Source: Halorientalis persicus
GTDB lineage: Archaea; Halobacteriota; Halobacteria; Halobacteriales; Haloarculaceae
Length of the DNA stretch: 64,000 nt
Direction of reading: 5' to 3'
Assembly: GCF_900110215.1 (NCBI RefSeq)
Contig: NZ_FOCX01000006.1
Location: forward strand, 124,001-188,000
The notes below the pieces were generated by a model. It did not search any database. It saw nothing but the letters and a program-made list of their open reading frames with translations, and was not told where the DNA came from. Below are positions 40,395 through 51,498 of this stretch, piece after piece. Each line of letters opens with the position of its first letter. Within the stretch, counting starts at the first letter, position 1. A program made the position numbers and the translations under genes.

Positions 40395-40895
40395 TTACTC
40401 GACGACGACAGCGCCGTGCATACCGTTCGCGCTGTGGGGGTTACAGTAGTAAGTGTAGTTCCCCGTCTCCTCGAAGGTGTGTGAGAAGGTCGAACCGGCG
40501 CTGGACTGGAGTTCGCTCTCGAAGGCGTCGTCGTTCGAGATGACGTTGTGTGAACCGCCGTTGCCCGTCCAGACCCAGACCACTTCGGTTCCGGGGGAGA
40601 CGACGACTGCGGCGGGATCGAATCCGTAGCCGAGGTCGCCGACACCGACGCTGACCTCGATGGAATCCTGGCCGGTCATGTCGACTGCACTGCCATCGTA
40701 GCCGTTCGCATCGTTCTCGTTCAGGTAGGTGTCGACCTCGCTGGGGGCGCTGACGGTCTCGTCACCGCCGCCACTGCCGGTCGGGGTGTCGTCCCCGCCA
40801 CCGTCACCGTTGTTCCCACCGCCGCCGCTACAGCCCGCGAGCGCGCCTGCCACTGTCATCGCTCCGATACCACGCACGAACGTACGTCTCTCCAT
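40395..40895 (-). CDS. Halocyanin-type blue copper lipoprotein
   Basis: A protein of 166 residues. A Tat-type N-terminus (MERRTFVRG) leads to a lipobox (ALAGC, Cys22), so it is an exported lipoprotein. A Gly/Asp-rich linker (25-50) follows, then a plastocyanin fold. Copper ligands are visible as H116 (GSHNV), C151, H154 and M159 in YYCNPHSANGM. It carries electrons at the outer face of the membrane. The ATG at 40895 is chosen because the RR motif follows directly. It lies next to the SAM gene but on the opposite strand. Confidence 0.92.
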   Translation of the reverse strand: MERRTFVRGIGAMTVAGALAGCSGGGGNNGDGGGDDTPTGSGGGDETVSAPSEVDTYLNENDANGYDGSAVDMTGQDSIEVSVGVGDLGYGFDPAAVVVSPGTEVVWVWTGNGGSHNVISNDDAFESELQSSAGSTFSHTFEETGNYTYYCNPHSANGMHGAVVVE

Positions 40896-41072
40896 GTCTC
40901 TGGTCACCTCGGTAGAGACTCAGGGATGAACACGGGTAAAGAGAAGGATCCGTTCCCAGGGTGTGAAAACGTACAGTGGCTGTTTGTGAACGTGTTCCCT
41001 TCGATCACGTATGTCGCCGAGACTGCAGACAGACGCCCGCAGTATCGTGGGTCGTGACCGGTCGCCGACGGC

Positions 41073-41084: not shown

Positions 41085-42305
41085 ATGATCTCGGTCAGCA
41101 AACTCCTCTGTGATCTGGACGCGGAGGGGGACGGCCTGCGCTACGACGCCGCCGACGAGTCCGACCGCGAGCAGATCCGCGAGGAGAAACAGCGCCGCCC
41201 GGTCGTCGTCTGGAACACCACGAAACAGTGCAACCTCTACTGTGACCACTGCTACGCCGCCGCCGACACCGAGTGTGCCCCTGGCGAACTCTCGACGGCC
41301 GAGGGGAAACGCCTGCTCGACGACCTGGCCGACTACGGCGTGCCCGTCGTGCTCTTCTCGGGCGGCGAACCGCTCGTCCGCGAGGACCTCGAAGAACTCG
41401 TCGCCTACGCCGCCGACAACGGCATCCGTCCGGTCCTCTCGACCAACGGGACGCTCATCACCGAGGAGCGTGCCCGCGATCTGAAGGCGGCCGGTCTCAA
41501 GTACGCCGGCGTCTCCGTCGACGGGCTCCCCGAGCGAAACGACGCGTTCCGCGGGCAGGACGGGGCCTTCGACGCCGCGCTCCGGGGCATCGAGGCCTGC
41601 CAGTCGGCCGGCCTCAAGACCGGCCTCCGGTACACCATCACGAAACACAACGCCGACGACCTCGAAGACGTGGTCGAGTTGCTCCACGACGCCGGCCTCG
41701 ACCGGTTCTGTTTCTACCATCTGGACTACGGGGGCCGCGGCGACGAGATTCAGGACGTGGACCTCACGCCCGCCGAGCGGCGCGAGGCCGTCCGGACCGT
41801 CTGTGACATGACCCGCGAGTACCACGCCCGCGGCGAGGAGATCGAGACGCTGCTCGTGGGCAACTACGCCGACGCCGGCTACCTCGTCGAGTACGCCCGC
41901 GAGCACCTGAGCGAGGCCGCGGCCGAGCGGATCTACCGGTACCTGCAGGTCAACGGCGGCGACCCGACCGGCGAGCGCGTCGCCGACGTGGACTACCAGG
42001 GCAACGTCCACCTCACCCAGTTCTGGCAGAACTACTCGCTGGGCAACGTCCGCGATCGGCCGTTCGGCGCGATCTGGGACGACGAGTCGAACCAGTTCCT
42101 GCAGAAACTGCGCAACCGCGAGGACCACCTCAAGGGCAAGTGTGCCGACTGTGCCTACCAGTCGGTCTGTCGGGGCGGCTCCCGCCTACGCGCGCTGTCG
42201 GTCCACGACGACCCCTTCGCCCCCGACCCGCAGTGTTACCTCCACGACGACGAGATCGAGGGGCAGAATCCGGTCTTCGACACTGGCCCCGAACCGGCGG
42301 ACTGA
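41085..42305 (+). CDS. Radical SAM/SPASM protein (AhbD/NirJ-like)
   Basis: A protein of 406 residues. The radical SAM cluster motif C49xxxC53xxC56 is in KQCNLYCDHCYA, GGEP near 94, and the barrel continues to about 280. A C-terminal SPASM domain has CADCAYQSVCRGG and a late Cys (PQCY), enough to bind a further 4Fe-4S cluster. The overall plan fits the AhbD/NirJ-type haem-pathway enzymes found in archaea that make haem from sirohaem; peptide-modifying enzymes share it too. No precursor peptide gene is seen. It is convergent with the helicase gene. Confidence 0.85.
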   Translation: MISVSKLLCDLDAEGDGLRYDAADESDREQIREEKQRRPVVVWNTTKQCNLYCDHCYAAADTECAPGELSTAEGKRLLDDLADYGVPVVLFSGGEPLVREDLEELVAYAADNGIRPVLSTNGTLITEERARDLKAAGLKYAGVSVDGLPERNDAFRGQDGAFDAALRGIEACQSAGLKTGLRYTITKHNADDLEDVVELLHDAGLDRFCFYHLDYGGRGDEIQDVDLTPAERREAVRTVCDMTREYHARGEEIETLLVGNYADAGYLVEYAREHLSEAAAERIYRYLQVNGGDPTGERVADVDYQGNVHLTQFWQNYSLGNVRDRPFGAIWDDESNQFLQKLRNREDHLKGKCADCAYQSVCRGGSRLRALSVHDDPFAPDPQCYLHDDEIEGQNPVFDTGPEPAD

Positions 42306-44748: not shown

Positions 44749-45441
44749 TCAGGAGTCGATCCGCTTGAGCTCGCCGTCGCCGGAGTTACCGCCGCCGCCG
44801 AGTTTGTCGCTGTTCCTCGAGAGGTGGAGCGCGAACAGGATCGGCGAGATGACACCCAGCACGAGGGCGACGCCCATCGCCAGCAGGCCGTCGGTCAAGA
44901 CGAGTTTGCCCCCTCCGTGGTCGCCGCCCTCACCGCCCGCGCCGCCAGCGCCGAGCTCCACGTCGCCGACGACCACGACGCCCTGCATGACGCCGACGTG
45001 GGGCTCACAGAGGTACTTGACGACGCCTTCCTCCTCGAAGGTCTGCTCGTAGGTCGCTCCCATCTCGTCGGTCGGGTCGCCACTACTGAATTCGCGATTC
45101 TCGCCGACGACGTTGTGTCGGCCGCCCTGCCACTCCCAGGTGATCGTCGTCCCGGGGTCGACCCGGACCGCCGGCGGATCGAACACGAGTTCGTTGTCAC
45201 CGCCGACCCCGATGGTGATCGAGTCTTGACCGGTCTCGTCGACGACTTCGCCGTCGTAGTTGGACGTGTCCGACAGCCAGCCGTCGAACGTCGGTCCGCC
45301 GGACTCCGTCCCTTCCTGTGCCGTCGCCGTCCCGGCCGCACCGGCCGCGACGCCTGCGGTCGCCGCGCCCGCCGCCGTCCGGAGAAAGCCGCGACGACTG
45401 GCCGTCGACCCGTCGGATTCGCTCGAACGTTCGGTATGCAT
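44749..45441 (-). CDS. Halocyanin-type copper protein with C-terminal membrane anchor
   Basis: A protein of 230 residues. A Tat signal (ASRRGFLRTAAG) is followed by cleavage near residue 42 (TATAQE). The plastocyanin domain (55-162) has ligands H109, C145, H148 and M152 (CEPHVGVM). A Gly-rich linker and a C-terminal membrane helix (about 184-207) anchor it, with the tail in the cytoplasm. Unlike the lipoprotein form, it is fixed by a C-terminal helix. It may pass electrons from a quinol oxidoreductase to a terminal oxidase. Confidence 0.9.
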   Translation of the reverse strand: MHTERSSESDGSTASRRGFLRTAAGAATAGVAAGAAGTATAQEGTESGGPTFDGWLSDTSNYDGEVVDETGQDSITIGVGGDNELVFDPPAVRVDPGTTITWEWQGGRHNVVGENREFSSGDPTDEMGATYEQTFEEEGVVKYLCEPHVGVMQGVVVVGDVELGAGGAGGEGGDHGGGKLVLTDGLLAMGVALVLGVISPILFALHLSRNSDKLGGGGNSGDGELKRIDS

Positions 45442-45537: not shown

Positions 45538-45975
45538 TCAGCGGACGATCGTGACGGGGCAGTGCGCCCGTCTGAGGACCGTCTCGGCGACGCTGCCCAG
45601 CAATATCCGGGACACGCCCGAGCGGCCGTGGCTCCCCATCACGATGTGATCGACCGGTTCGGTGTCGGCGAACTCGACGATGCTGCGGGCCGGTTGCCCC
45701 ATCGTCGTCTCCGTCTCCAGGGTGACGCCGTACTCGTCGGCGGTCGCCTGGGCGTCCTCGAACAGTTGTTCGGCGTTTTCCTCCTCGCTCTCGTACCAGT
45801 CCTCCCAGTAGCCCGGGAGCGACGCCTCCATCGGCGCGCCGTAGCCGGCTTCGACGAAATCGAGAACGTGCAAGACGGTGATCGTCGCCTCGTCGGCGTA
45901 CTCTTCGAGGGCGAACTCCACGGCCCGCTCGGACAGCGGCGACGCATCGAGCGGGACCAACACATGATCGGTCAT
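45538..45975 (-). CDS. UspA family universal stress protein
   Basis: A protein of 145 residues. Conserved ends are HVLVPLDASPLSERAVEFAL and the ATP-binding type GSHGRSGVSRILLGSVAE near 118. The length is standard for a single-domain Usp. The ATG at 45975 is used because the fold starts there; upstream residues are Ser/Arg-rich and unrelated. An ACTAATCC-type element lies 28 nt upstream. It is divergent from the SCO1-type gene. Confidence 0.9.
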   Translation of the reverse strand: MTDHVLVPLDASPLSERAVEFALEEYADEATITVLHVLDFVEAGYGAPMEASLPGYWEDWYESEEENAEQLFEDAQATADEYGVTLETETTMGQPARSIVEFADTEPVDHIVMGSHGRSGVSRILLGSVAETVLRRAHCPVTIVR

Positions 45976-46110
45976 ACCCCACTCTTGGTACTCGCCCGGA
46001 TTAGTATCCGTCGAGATTCCAGCACTCCGAGAATCGCCGCCTGTGCTCTCGGCCCGCACGATCGCAGGAGAACGCGACCCTTTACTCCGTTCAGTCACAA
46101 CGTCTTCCTA

Positions 46111-47831: not shown

Positions 47832-48515
47832 GTGCTCGCCGCCGAGTTGCACTCTCACTCGTCGCTGTCTCACGACGGCCGTGATCCGGTCGATCTGCTT
47901 CTGGGGCAGGCCCAGGCCGTCGGACTGGACGCGCTGGCCGTCACCGATCACGACGAGATCAAGGCCAGTCTGGCGGCCGTCGAGAAAGCCGAGGAGTACG
48001 GGCTCGTCGGCATCCCCGGGATGGAAGTCTCGACGGCCGCTGGCCACGTCCTCGCGCTGGGAGTGCGCGAGGCGGTCCCGCCCGGACTCTCCTTCGGCGA
48101 GACGCTGGACCGCATCCGCAGGCTCGGCGGCATCGCCGTCGTTCCACACCCGTTTCAGGAGTCCCGCAGCGGCGTCCTCGCGAACATTTCTCGGGAGACG
48201 CTGACGGCCGCCGACGCCATCGAGGTGTACAACTCCCGCCTGCTGACGGGGCGGTCGAACCGCCAGGCCGAACGGTTCGCCCGTCGCAACGGGATGCCGA
48301 TGACCGCCGGGAGCGACGCCCACATCAGCGAGATGGTCGGTCAGGCCGTCACCCGCATCGACGCGGCCGAACGCTCCGTCGACGCGATTCTGGAGGCCAT
48401 CCGCGAAGGTCACACCACCGTCGAGGGCAAGCGCACGCCCTGGCGGATCAGCTTCCGGCAGGCCGCCGGGGGCGTCAAGCGCCGCGTCGCGCGCCGACTC
48501 TCCGACCTGCGATGA
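47832..48515 (+). CDS. PHP-domain metal-dependent phosphoesterase
   Basis: A protein of 227 residues from a GTG start. PHP motifs: ELHSHSSLSHDG (residues 5-16), TDHDEI near 39, GMEVST near 63, PHPF near 103 and GSDAH near 163. That is a full trinuclear metal site as in TrpH/RNase AM-type and histidinol phosphatase-like enzymes. It hydrolyses phosphate esters, probably of nucleotides. It overlaps the next gene by 4 bases (ATGA). Confidence 0.88.
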   Translation: MLAAELHSHSSLSHDGRDPVDLLLGQAQAVGLDALAVTDHDEIKASLAAVEKAEEYGLVGIPGMEVSTAAGHVLALGVREAVPPGLSFGETLDRIRRLGGIAVVPHPFQESRSGVLANISRETLTAADAIEVYNSRLLTGRSNRQAERFARRNGMPMTAGSDAHISEMVGQAVTRIDAAERSVDAILEAIREGHTTVEGKRTPWRISFRQAAGGVKRRVARRLSDLR

Positions 48516-49630
48516 TCGACGGTGCCGACCCGGCGACCGTTCGCGCCGCGCTCGACTCCGGTGACCCCCTCCCCGGGACTCGGGGGTTCGCCGGGCGACT
48601 CGACACCGAAGACGGATCGGCCCTGCTGGTTCGGGACGTTCTCGGCCGGTATCCCTGCTTTTCCGAGGCCGACGATCCGACGGCGTGGAGCGTCGACCCG
48701 ACCGACCTCTCCGATCCCGACCCCGTTCCGGCGGGCCACGTCCGAACCCCCGACGGCGACGAGCAGGTCTGGCCGCTCCCGGACCCGCCCGCGACCGACG
48801 ACGACGCGGTGGCGATCACGGCAGTGCGGGCGGCGGTCGAGGCGAGTACCGCCGCCGTCGAAACCGACGGTCTCGCGGTCGCGTTCTCCGGGGGCGTCGA
48901 CTCGGCGGTCCTGGCCGCGAGACTCGACGCGCCGCTGTACGTCGCGGGCTTTCCCGACAGCCACGACGTGGAAGCCGCCCGCTCGGCCGCCGCGGCGATG
49001 GATCGGGATTGCACCGTAGTCGAACTCACCCACGACGACCTCGAACGCGCGGTGCCGGAACTGGCTCACGCCATCGGTCGGACCAACGCGATGGACGTAC
49101 AGATCGCGCTCCCCCTCTATCTCGTGGCCGAACGGGTCGCCGCCGACGGCTTCGACCGGCTCGCGGTCGGACAGGGAGCCGACGAACTGTTCGGCGGCTA
49201 CGCCAAGGTTGCGAAAGCCCCCGACGACCCGCGCGTCGACGCCGACACGGTCCGGGGGGCGCGCCGCGAGGTCGTGACCACCCTGCCCGACCAGCTAGAG
49301 CGGGACGTGCTCGCACTGCGGGCCGCGGGGGTCGAACCCGTCGCGCCACTCCTCTCCGACCGGGTGATCGAAGCGGCGCTCCCGCTTCCCGGGCACTTGT
49401 TAGTGGCCGACCCCGCCCCGGGCGAGGACCGTGGTGACGCCGAGCGGAAGGTCGCGCTCCGCCGGGCGGCCGCGTCGTGGCTCCCCGACGAGGTTTCCGC
49501 GCGGGACAAGAAGGCCGTCCAGTACGGCAGTCTGGTCGCCAGAGAACTCGATCGGCTGGCCCGGCAGGCCGGCTTCAAGCGCCGGATGGACGATCACGTC
49601 ACGAAGTACGTCCGGTCGCTGGTGGACTAG
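48512..49630 (+). CDS. Asparagine synthetase-like protein lacking glutaminase domain
   Basis: A protein of 372 residues. The PP-loop ATP pyrophosphatase core has AFSGGVDSAVLA near residue 125 and GQGADELFGGYAK near 219, as in AsnB. The N-terminal Ntn glutaminase is reduced to about 90 residues (GFAGRLDTEDGSALLVRDVLG) and lacks the catalytic Cys2, so glutamine cannot be the nitrogen donor. It is probably ammonia-dependent or acts on another acid, like beta-lactam synthetase relatives. It overlaps the PHP gene by 4 bases and the next convergent gene by 4 bases. Confidence 0.85.
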   Translation: MIDGADPATVRAALDSGDPLPGTRGFAGRLDTEDGSALLVRDVLGRYPCFSEADDPTAWSVDPTDLSDPDPVPAGHVRTPDGDEQVWPLPDPPATDDDAVAITAVRAAVEASTAAVETDGLAVAFSGGVDSAVLAARLDAPLYVAGFPDSHDVEAARSAAAAMDRDCTVVELTHDDLERAVPELAHAIGRTNAMDVQIALPLYLVAERVAADGFDRLAVGQGADELFGGYAKVAKAPDDPRVDADTVRGARREVVTTLPDQLERDVLALRAAGVEPVAPLLSDRVIEAALPLPGHLLVADPAPGEDRGDAERKVALRRAAASWLPDEVSARDKKAVQYGSLVARELDRLARQAGFKRRMDDHVTKYVRSLVD

Positions 49631-51498
49631 TCGCCGCCGCGCCACTGCCGGAGGCCAGCCACGCCGAGCATCGCCAGCGCGGTCCCGACGGCGGTAAAGC
49701 CCGCGCCGGTGCCGGTGCTGGTGGCGGCGTCAGCCGGTGTCGCCGTTCGTTCCTCGTCCCCTCGGGCGCTCGCGCCGGTGACGACCTGCAGCCGGTGGGG
49801 ATCCCGCGTCCGGTTTTCCGGGACGTACAGCGTCCCGTCCGTGAGCAACGGAGCGATGTGCACGTCGGCGGGGGTCTGTCCGGTATCCTGCCAGCGGCCG
49901 AGTTCGGTCGTCCAGCGGGGTTCCCCGGTGGCTGGATCGAAGCCGTGGACAGCTCTGGTCCGCTCGGGGTCGCCGTCCTCGTCGAATCCGCCGACGGCAC
50001 CCAGGTTGGCGGCGTAGACGAGGCCGGCCGCCGAGGAGCCGTCGTCGCCACTCCCGACCGTCGGTGGGCCCACGGTCCCCCGGGTCCGGGTCCGCCACTG
50101 CCGGTCACCGGACTCCGCCGCGAACGCGTAGAGGTGGTAGTCGTGACAGCCGGCGTAGACACGTCCGTTCGCGACGGCGAGCCCCGTCACCGCACTCCCG
50201 AGGCGGGCGGTCCACACGGCGTCGCCACTCGCCGCGTCGCGGGCGTGGACGGCGTGGGACTCACTGCCGACGAAGACCCGGCCGTCCGCGACGACCGGTG
50301 CAGTCGGCGGGTACGACGCCCGCTCGAACCGCCACTGACGCGCACCGCTCTCGATGTCGTAGGCCCGCAGACGCAATCGTGGGTCCCGGCCGTTCGTCCC
50401 GAAGTTCGCGCTGGCGCTGACGTAGAGCCGGCCGTCGCGGACGGCGACGCCCGACACAGTGTCTTCGGTCCGTTTCCACCACCGCTGGTCGCCGGTCGCC
50501 GGGTCGAGGACGCCGTTGCCGCCGGTCGCACCGACCACCAGTCGGCCGTCGGCCAGCGAGAGGGCGCTGATCGGCCCGTTAGGTATCTGTCGCTGCCATC
50601 GCAGACCACCCCTCTCCGCGTCGAAACACACGACCTGCGCCCGGAGCGTGTTCGTCTCGCTGCGCTCGCGGGTCCAGCGGGGATTCCGTGCAGCATAGAG
50701 CCGGCCGTCCCTGTACGCCAGGGGCCACTCGGCCGTGTGCTCCCACCGGCGTTGCCCCGTCGTCGCATCGACGGCCATCACCTTCTCGGGGCGGCTGACG
50801 AACAGCATCCCGTCGCCAGACACTATCCCCAGGATCGGCTCGGTGACTTCGAGCCGTCCGCTCGCCTGAACGCTCTCGCTCGGGCCGCCGGCGGGGAGGT
50901 AACGGGTGTTCGCCGCGTCGAAGCCCGCTTCCGGCCAGGCGATTCCTGACGCGGCCGGCCACTCGCCCTCAGCCGTCGGGCGGGGTGTCGGCGTTGGCGT
51001 CGCCGTGACCGCTCGCCGCGGATAGTCGGTACCGACCACGATTGCCCCTTTCATTCCCAGTCCCTTGTGTGGCAGACACTGGTACGGGTAGATGCCGTCC
51101 TCTTCGAAGGTGTGTTCGTAGTGGACGCCCGGTTCCTGGAACGGTTCCGAGTTGAGCGGCCGTCTGTTCGTCGAGGTGACCGTGTGCGAGCCGTGGTCGC
51201 CGGTCCACTCCCAGCGGACGGTCGCGCCGGTGTCGACGTGGACCGCGGCGGGATCGAACCCGAAGTCGTCCTCGCCGGCGGCGACCCGGACCGTCACGTC
51301 CGCCTGCCCGCGGCGGTCGACGACTGTCCCGTCGTAGTTGTTCGCGCCGTCGAGCCAGCCGCCGAAATCGGGCGGCGCGCCCTGTCCGCCGCCGCCCCCG
51401 CCGCCTTCCTGTCCGCTACTACCGACCGACAGCGCCGTCCACCCGAGGACGGACGCCGCGGCCCCGAGTGTGGCACGTCTGGTGAACGAGTCCGACAC
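49627..51498 (-). CDS. Halocyanin/PQQ-type beta-propeller fusion, Tat-exported
   Basis: A protein of 623 residues. Tat motif TRRATLG at 6-12. Plastocyanin domain about 45-155 with ligands H105, C141, H144 and M149 (CLPHKGLGM). A Pro/Thr linker follows, then a PQQ/pyrrolo-quinoline-type propeller (about 190-590) with repeats of the form DATTGQRRWEH, DPATGDQRWW, DIESGARQWRF, DAASGDAVWTA and DPATGEPRWTT. The end has a Gly/Ala/Leu membrane helix followed by RQWRGGD. It is an extracellular-facing, membrane-anchored protein joining an electron carrier to a dehydrogenase-like propeller. Substrate and PQQ binding are not shown by sequence. Confidence 0.85.
   Translation of the reverse strand: MSDSFTRRATLGAAASVLGWTALSVGSSGQEGGGGGGGQGAPPDFGGWLDGANNYDGTVVDRRGQADVTVRVAAGEDDFGFDPAAVHVDTGATVRWEWTGDHGSHTVTSTNRRPLNSEPFQEPGVHYEHTFEEDGIYPYQCLPHKGLGMKGAIVVGTDYPRRAVTATPTPTPRPTAEGEWPAASGIAWPEAGFDAANTRYLPAGGPSESVQASGRLEVTEPILGIVSGDGMLFVSRPEKVMAVDATTGQRRWEHTAEWPLAYRDGRLYAARNPRWTRERSETNTLRAQVVCFDAERGGLRWQRQIPNGPISALSLADGRLVVGATGGNGVLDPATGDQRWWKRTEDTVSGVAVRDGRLYVSASANFGTNGRDPRLRLRAYDIESGARQWRFERASYPPTAPVVADGRVFVGSESHAVHARDAASGDAVWTARLGSAVTGLAVANGRVYAGCHDYHLYAFAAESGDRQWRTRTRGTVGPPTVGSGDDGSSAAGLVYAANLGAVGGFDEDGDPERTRAVHGFDPATGEPRWTTELGRWQDTGQTPADVHIAPLLTDGTLYVPENRTRDPHRLQVVTGASARGDEERTATPADAATSTGTGAGFTAVGTALAMLGVAGLRQWRGGD

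Follow-up and report, generated by a model that had tools for sequence, protein, structure and literature searches.

The gene at 49627-51498 on the minus strand of the window (the whole 64,000-nucleotide stretch of Halorientalis persicus DNA analyzed here) encodes a rare and new pairing of two common haloarchaeal domains, a halocyanin and a PQQ_2-type β-propeller, and its product is probably a surface-anchored halocyanin in which the propeller positions the copper domain or docks a redox partner. The gene starts with GTG, and its 623-aa product consists, from the N- to the C-terminus, of a Tat signal, a Gly-rich stretch, the halocyanin domain, a Pro/Thr linker, the propeller, a linker of low conservation, and a hydrophobic tail. 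The coordinates given by a sequence-only reading of this DNA were correct; the strand, which it had left unstated, is minus, and read on the plus strand this interval contains an internal stop and encodes no such protein. The features of the gene are as follows.

49627..51498, minus strand: whole fusion gene, 623 aa, with orthologues in two genomes at 65% and about 50-51% identity
51400..51498, minus strand: Tat signal region, residues 1-33 (TRRATLG...), without a lipobox cysteine, from sequence; R7, R8, L11, and G12 invariant in three orthologues
51028..51372, minus strand: halocyanin (type-1 blue copper) domain, residues 43-157, from TIGR03102 and PF00127; ligands H105, C141, H144, and M149
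50938..51027, minus strand: Pro/Thr-rich linker, residues 158-187, from sequence; pLDDT <50
49768..50937, minus strand: eight-bladed PQQ_2/BamB-like β-propeller, residues 188-577, from PF13360, the AF2 model, and Foldseek
49630..49707, minus strand: PGF-CTERM-like C-terminal anchor, residues 598-623 (GAGFTAVGTALAMLGVAGLRQWRGGD), 65-69% identity across orthologues

Copper domain, export and anchoring

The domain search suggested by the sequence-only reading returned both Copper-bind and PQQ_2 above their Pfam cut-offs, and the Pfam and NCBIfam domain matches, together with the two orthologues, bear out its claim that a blue-copper domain and a propeller lie on a single polypeptide. Copper-bind (PF00127) matches residues 69-155 (E 4.9e-11), and the fusion protein scores 136.4 bits on the NCBIfam halocyanin model TIGR03102 (cut-off 93.8), with 138 bits for the orthologues. 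The complete Cu site is found exactly where it had been placed, at H105, C141, H144, and M149; its C-x2-H-x4-M spacing with an upstream histidine corresponds to that of plastocyanin, and an alignment of the three orthologues shows no variation at the four ligands. The halocyanin domain would be expected to bind copper. Halocyanins of Natronomonas pharaonis and other haloarchaea (TIGR03102) have the same domain, ligands, and spacing, and the stand-alone members closest to the copper domain of the fusion reach up to about 62% identity. Unlike the fusion, most of the stand-alone halocyanins compared are about 220-250 aa long, and they have a different C-terminal helix and no propeller.

Two stand-alone halocyanin genes (40395-40907 and 44749-45441, both minus strand), both over the TIGR03102 cut-off, are located within 11 kb of the fusion. 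The latter adjoins a universal-stress-protein gene (45538-46098, minus strand), a pairing that seems to recur in a same-genus relative (L015). The window also encodes a TIGR04347 'pseudo-SAM/SPASM' protein (41085-42305, plus strand; 731 bits, cut-off 525), which is related to haem d1/AhbC-type radical SAM enzymes and whose gene is divergent from a halocyanin gene.

The N-terminal TRRATLG motif, with its twin arginines invariant in the three orthologues, agrees with the Tat export predicted earlier. The C-terminal membrane helix of the sequence-only reading stands as a hydrophobic segment, within which residues 602-617 are a predicted helix, but this segment looks less like a permanent transmembrane domain than like a PGF-CTERM sorting tail. 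Identity across the orthologues is 65-69% for the tail, compared with only 15-30% for the linker that precedes it. The tail reads AGF, not PGF, in the window copy, while that of the orthologue from another genus (G144) reads PGF and scores 17.4 bits on TIGR04126, under the cut-off of 24.5. Since this PGF-reading tail gives a sub-threshold match and an archaeosortase A gene is present in the genome (306 bits), anchoring of the fusion protein by archaeosortase is likely, as judged from sequence. In its GF, hydrophobic run, and basic end, the tail is also similar to the tails found on some of the genome's stand-alone PQQ_2 propellers, so that the protein looks like a self-anchored propeller with a halocyanin placed behind the signal peptide. 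We infer that the fusion arose in this manner, the halocyanin having been inserted behind the signal peptide of a propeller that had its own anchor.

Distribution, conservation and gene context

The distribution of the fusion was analyzed in 146 genomes covering the family and in two overlapping draws of 392 and 391 haloarchaeal genomes, which represent part of the class. Two other species have the full-length architecture, one from the same genus (65% identity, E 1e-255) and one from a different genus of the family (about 50-51% identity, E 4e-145), and it is absent from all other genomes of these three sets. Its presence in two other genomes, with the copper ligands retained in every copy, excludes an assembly artefact and also places it far from chance. 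Long open frames at G016 and G010 were considered as halocyanin fusions and rejected, since both appear to be plain halocyanins extended upstream by spurious frames. No fused relative was found in the plasmid records searched, none of which covers 80% of the query, and no description of a halocyanin-propeller fusion was found in the open-access literature searched, of which coverage was partial.

Between the two closest copies, the codon-position difference is 0.20 at second and 0.46 at third positions in the propeller, and 0.24 and 0.51, respectively, in the halocyanin domain. Second positions thus differ far less than third positions, which matches the expectation for a protein kept by selection. 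The common architecture, the propeller subfamily, and the tail argue for a single origin of the fusion; the tree of the halocyanin domain is too weakly resolved to bear on a shared origin of the three fused domains.

The neighbours of the fusion gene in the window encode a TFB, an Asparagine-synthase-like protein, and a PHP protein. In the same-genus relative the fusion gene is flanked by the same TFB and Asn-synthase-like genes, apart from an inserted PAS/MCP chemotaxis-type signalling gene (L015 8601-10337, minus strand), which lies there between the TFB gene and the fusion and is absent from this place in the window. The Asparagine-synthase-like gene (48512-49630, plus strand; 372 aa), which matches mainly the synthetase part of the asn_synth models, is convergent with the fusion gene and overlaps its stop codon by 4 bases, as it also does in the same-genus relative. 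The gene context differs in the genome of the other genus, where it includes a radical SAM/TRAM protein. None of the neighbours tested was identified as a dehydrogenase, an oxidase, or another known respiratory enzyme, and the third genome does not share them; the gene context points to no redox partner.

Propeller fold and alternative readings

PQQ_2 (PF13360) matches the propeller with 123.6 bits (cut-off 27.6, E 1.3e-35), and Pfam PQQ also matches beyond the copper domain (E 1e-12). An AF2 model based on the three orthologues together with six paralogues (pLDDT 82.5, pTM 0.86) has a strand order consistent with eight blades, the last of which is completed by the N-terminal strand; seven docking motifs of the form D/A-x-x-T/S/R-G-x-x-x-W were counted, in line with the repeated DxxTGxxxW-type blades described earlier. 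In a Foldseek comparison of the propeller model with solved structures, tetrathionate hydrolase, a PQQ-free enzyme, and BamB rank first, and the first quinoprotein enzyme, L-sorbose dehydrogenase, appears at rank 48. With the full-length model, BamB is first and tetrathionate hydrolase next, and no quinoprotein dehydrogenase is among the best 50 matches. In a sequence-profile comparison, scores are >100 bits (up to 380) for most of the designed and BamB-type propellers and 60-87 bits for quinoprotein dehydrogenases; this profile is dominated by paralogues and therefore mostly describes the wider haloarchaeal group. BamB (YfgL) shares the eight-bladed fold and is among the top structural matches, but the fusion protein is not a member-level match to it (78.6 bits on TIGR03300, cut-off 285.2).

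At least 10 further exported PQQ_2-type propellers are encoded in the same genome, several of which begin likewise with a W-P-x-x-x-x-D-A-A-N-T type motif. Haloarchaeal exported PQQ_2/BamB-like propellers share the fold, the start motif, and the docking motifs with the fusion, and some have a GF-type tail, but they lack the copper domain. The propeller of the fusion is 23-28% identical to those of its paralogues in the genome, and no other haloarchaeal propeller reached E 1e-25 with the fusion as query within the genome draw searched; by sequence comparison, the propellers of the three fusion orthologues form a subfamily of their own. A further odd pairing in the same genome (contig C51, L031 257-3073) joins a PQQ_2 propeller, normally an exported domain, to an Mrr-type restriction endonuclease domain in a protein of 938 aa.

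The sequence-only reading had proposed that the propeller is a dehydrogenase passing electrons directly to the copper site. That a quinoprotein propeller oxidizes a substrate and delivers the electrons to the blue copper of the same chain draws on the match to PF01011, the propeller of glucose/ethanol/alcohol dehydrogenases (48 bits, cut-off 26.7), on the eight blades of the model, which quinoprotein alcohol dehydrogenases also have, and on the existence of PQQ propellers fused to electron-transfer haem domains in quinohaemoprotein alcohol dehydrogenases. PQQ alcohol dehydrogenases (TIGR03075) indeed share the eight-bladed superfamily and the W-docking motifs with the fusion, and the cytochrome c fusion of their quinohaemoprotein forms is an analogous idea. 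However, the vicinal Cys-Cys, Glu, Asn, and catalytic Asp motifs, which we take to be signatures of the alcohol-dehydrogenase type, are all missing (none of the four in the window protein, in either orthologue, or in the ten paralogues scanned), whereas the same script detected the vicinal Cys-Cys, GGEFGVRG, GTGNP, and RPGDN in the XoxF methanol dehydrogenase of Sinorhizobium meliloti, the control for both the motif and the profile tests. The fusion protein has three cysteines, none adjacent. It scores 50.8 bits on TIGR03075, about a tenth of the cut-off of 480.05 (XoxF, 787.5), and 27.6 bits on the model of the membrane glucose dehydrogenase type (cut-off 832.65), and it is far below the cut-off for every PQQ enzyme family among the NCBI models. 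In the genome, no protein exceeds the TIGR03075 cut-off, the best being a paralogue at 51 bits, and no PqqE over cut-off was found. With BamB also ranking above the quinoproteins by fold, a BamB-like propeller without conserved cofactor residues, which the sequence-only reading had named as evidence against its proposal, is largely what sequence and fold present. The dehydrogenase reading of the propeller and the proposed electron transfer are not supported, and we give the quinoprotein route hardly any probability. Uptake of PQQ from the medium or an unusual cofactor site is possible.

It is unlikely that the propeller is an enzyme of a non-PQQ type whose own catalytic site exchanges electrons with the copper domain. 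Tetrathionate hydrolase and, by analogy, nitrous oxide reductase, which combines a propeller with a cupredoxin, could serve as models for such an enzyme. Tetrathionate hydrolase is the top match by fold (TM 0.63-0.73 on the query), yet at only 16-18% sequence identity, and tetrathionate hydrolysis needs no electron carrier. Polar residues in blades 5-7 (H415, H418, C451, D453, Y454, R466, R469, R471, and R473) are invariant, but invariance of single residues says little with only three orthologues, and H415 occupies an apparently ordinary B-C turn position of the repeat. We regard as quite unlikely a self-contained extracellular oxidoreductase, in which a propeller site of a new kind, with a non-PQQ or unusual cofactor, would feed the blue copper of the same chain. 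Highly unlikely, in our view, is a role in surface copper capture or sensing, with the head storing or delivering copper and the propeller docking to a copper-handling protein: type-1 sites bind copper tightly and are suited to electron transfer, and none of the neighbours tested was identified as a copper-handling gene. Such a role would be consistent with the surface anchoring, the complete Cu site, and the occurrence of halocyanin-type genes in operons with multicopper oxidases, linked to copper homeostasis (PMC11218638).

Proposed role and significance

In the preferred reading, that of an anchored halocyanin with a docking or positioning propeller, the Tat pathway would export the fusion protein and the tail would anchor it, probably by archaeosortase processing. 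The halocyanin head would carry a single electron on its type-1 copper, and the BamB-like eight-bladed propeller, in this reading no quinoprotein enzyme, would serve as a platform for protein binding or positioning and keep the copper domain, via the flexible Pro/Thr linker, near a redox partner. This partner, at the outer membrane face or the S-layer, might be a bc1-type complex, a terminal oxidase, or a copper oxidoreductase encoded elsewhere. We infer the anchoring chemistry, the role in docking, and which proteins could be the partner, and docking is suggested only by the homology of the fold. A study of propeller evolution (PMC9218822) assigns PQQ-type propellers a protein-binding role in several processes, and halocyanin is a haloarchaeal one-electron carrier (PMC8305020). 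A precedent for a halocyanin joined to a partner component is the halocyanin/CbaD fusion OE_4073R of Halobacterium, in which the halocyanin is likewise fused to another membrane-associated protein, there a subunit of a terminal oxidase instead of a propeller (PMC8305020).

The missing PQQ-dehydrogenase site is a warning that the common annotation 'PQQ-binding-like' of haloarchaeal propellers is not evidence for an enzyme. Haloarchaea use halocyanins in place of cytochrome c, and the electron flow has been left open for lineages without a bc1 complex (PMC8305020). With its halocyanin permanently linked to the propeller, the fusion is a natural bait, and the binding partner of the propeller would be a candidate for the redox partner.
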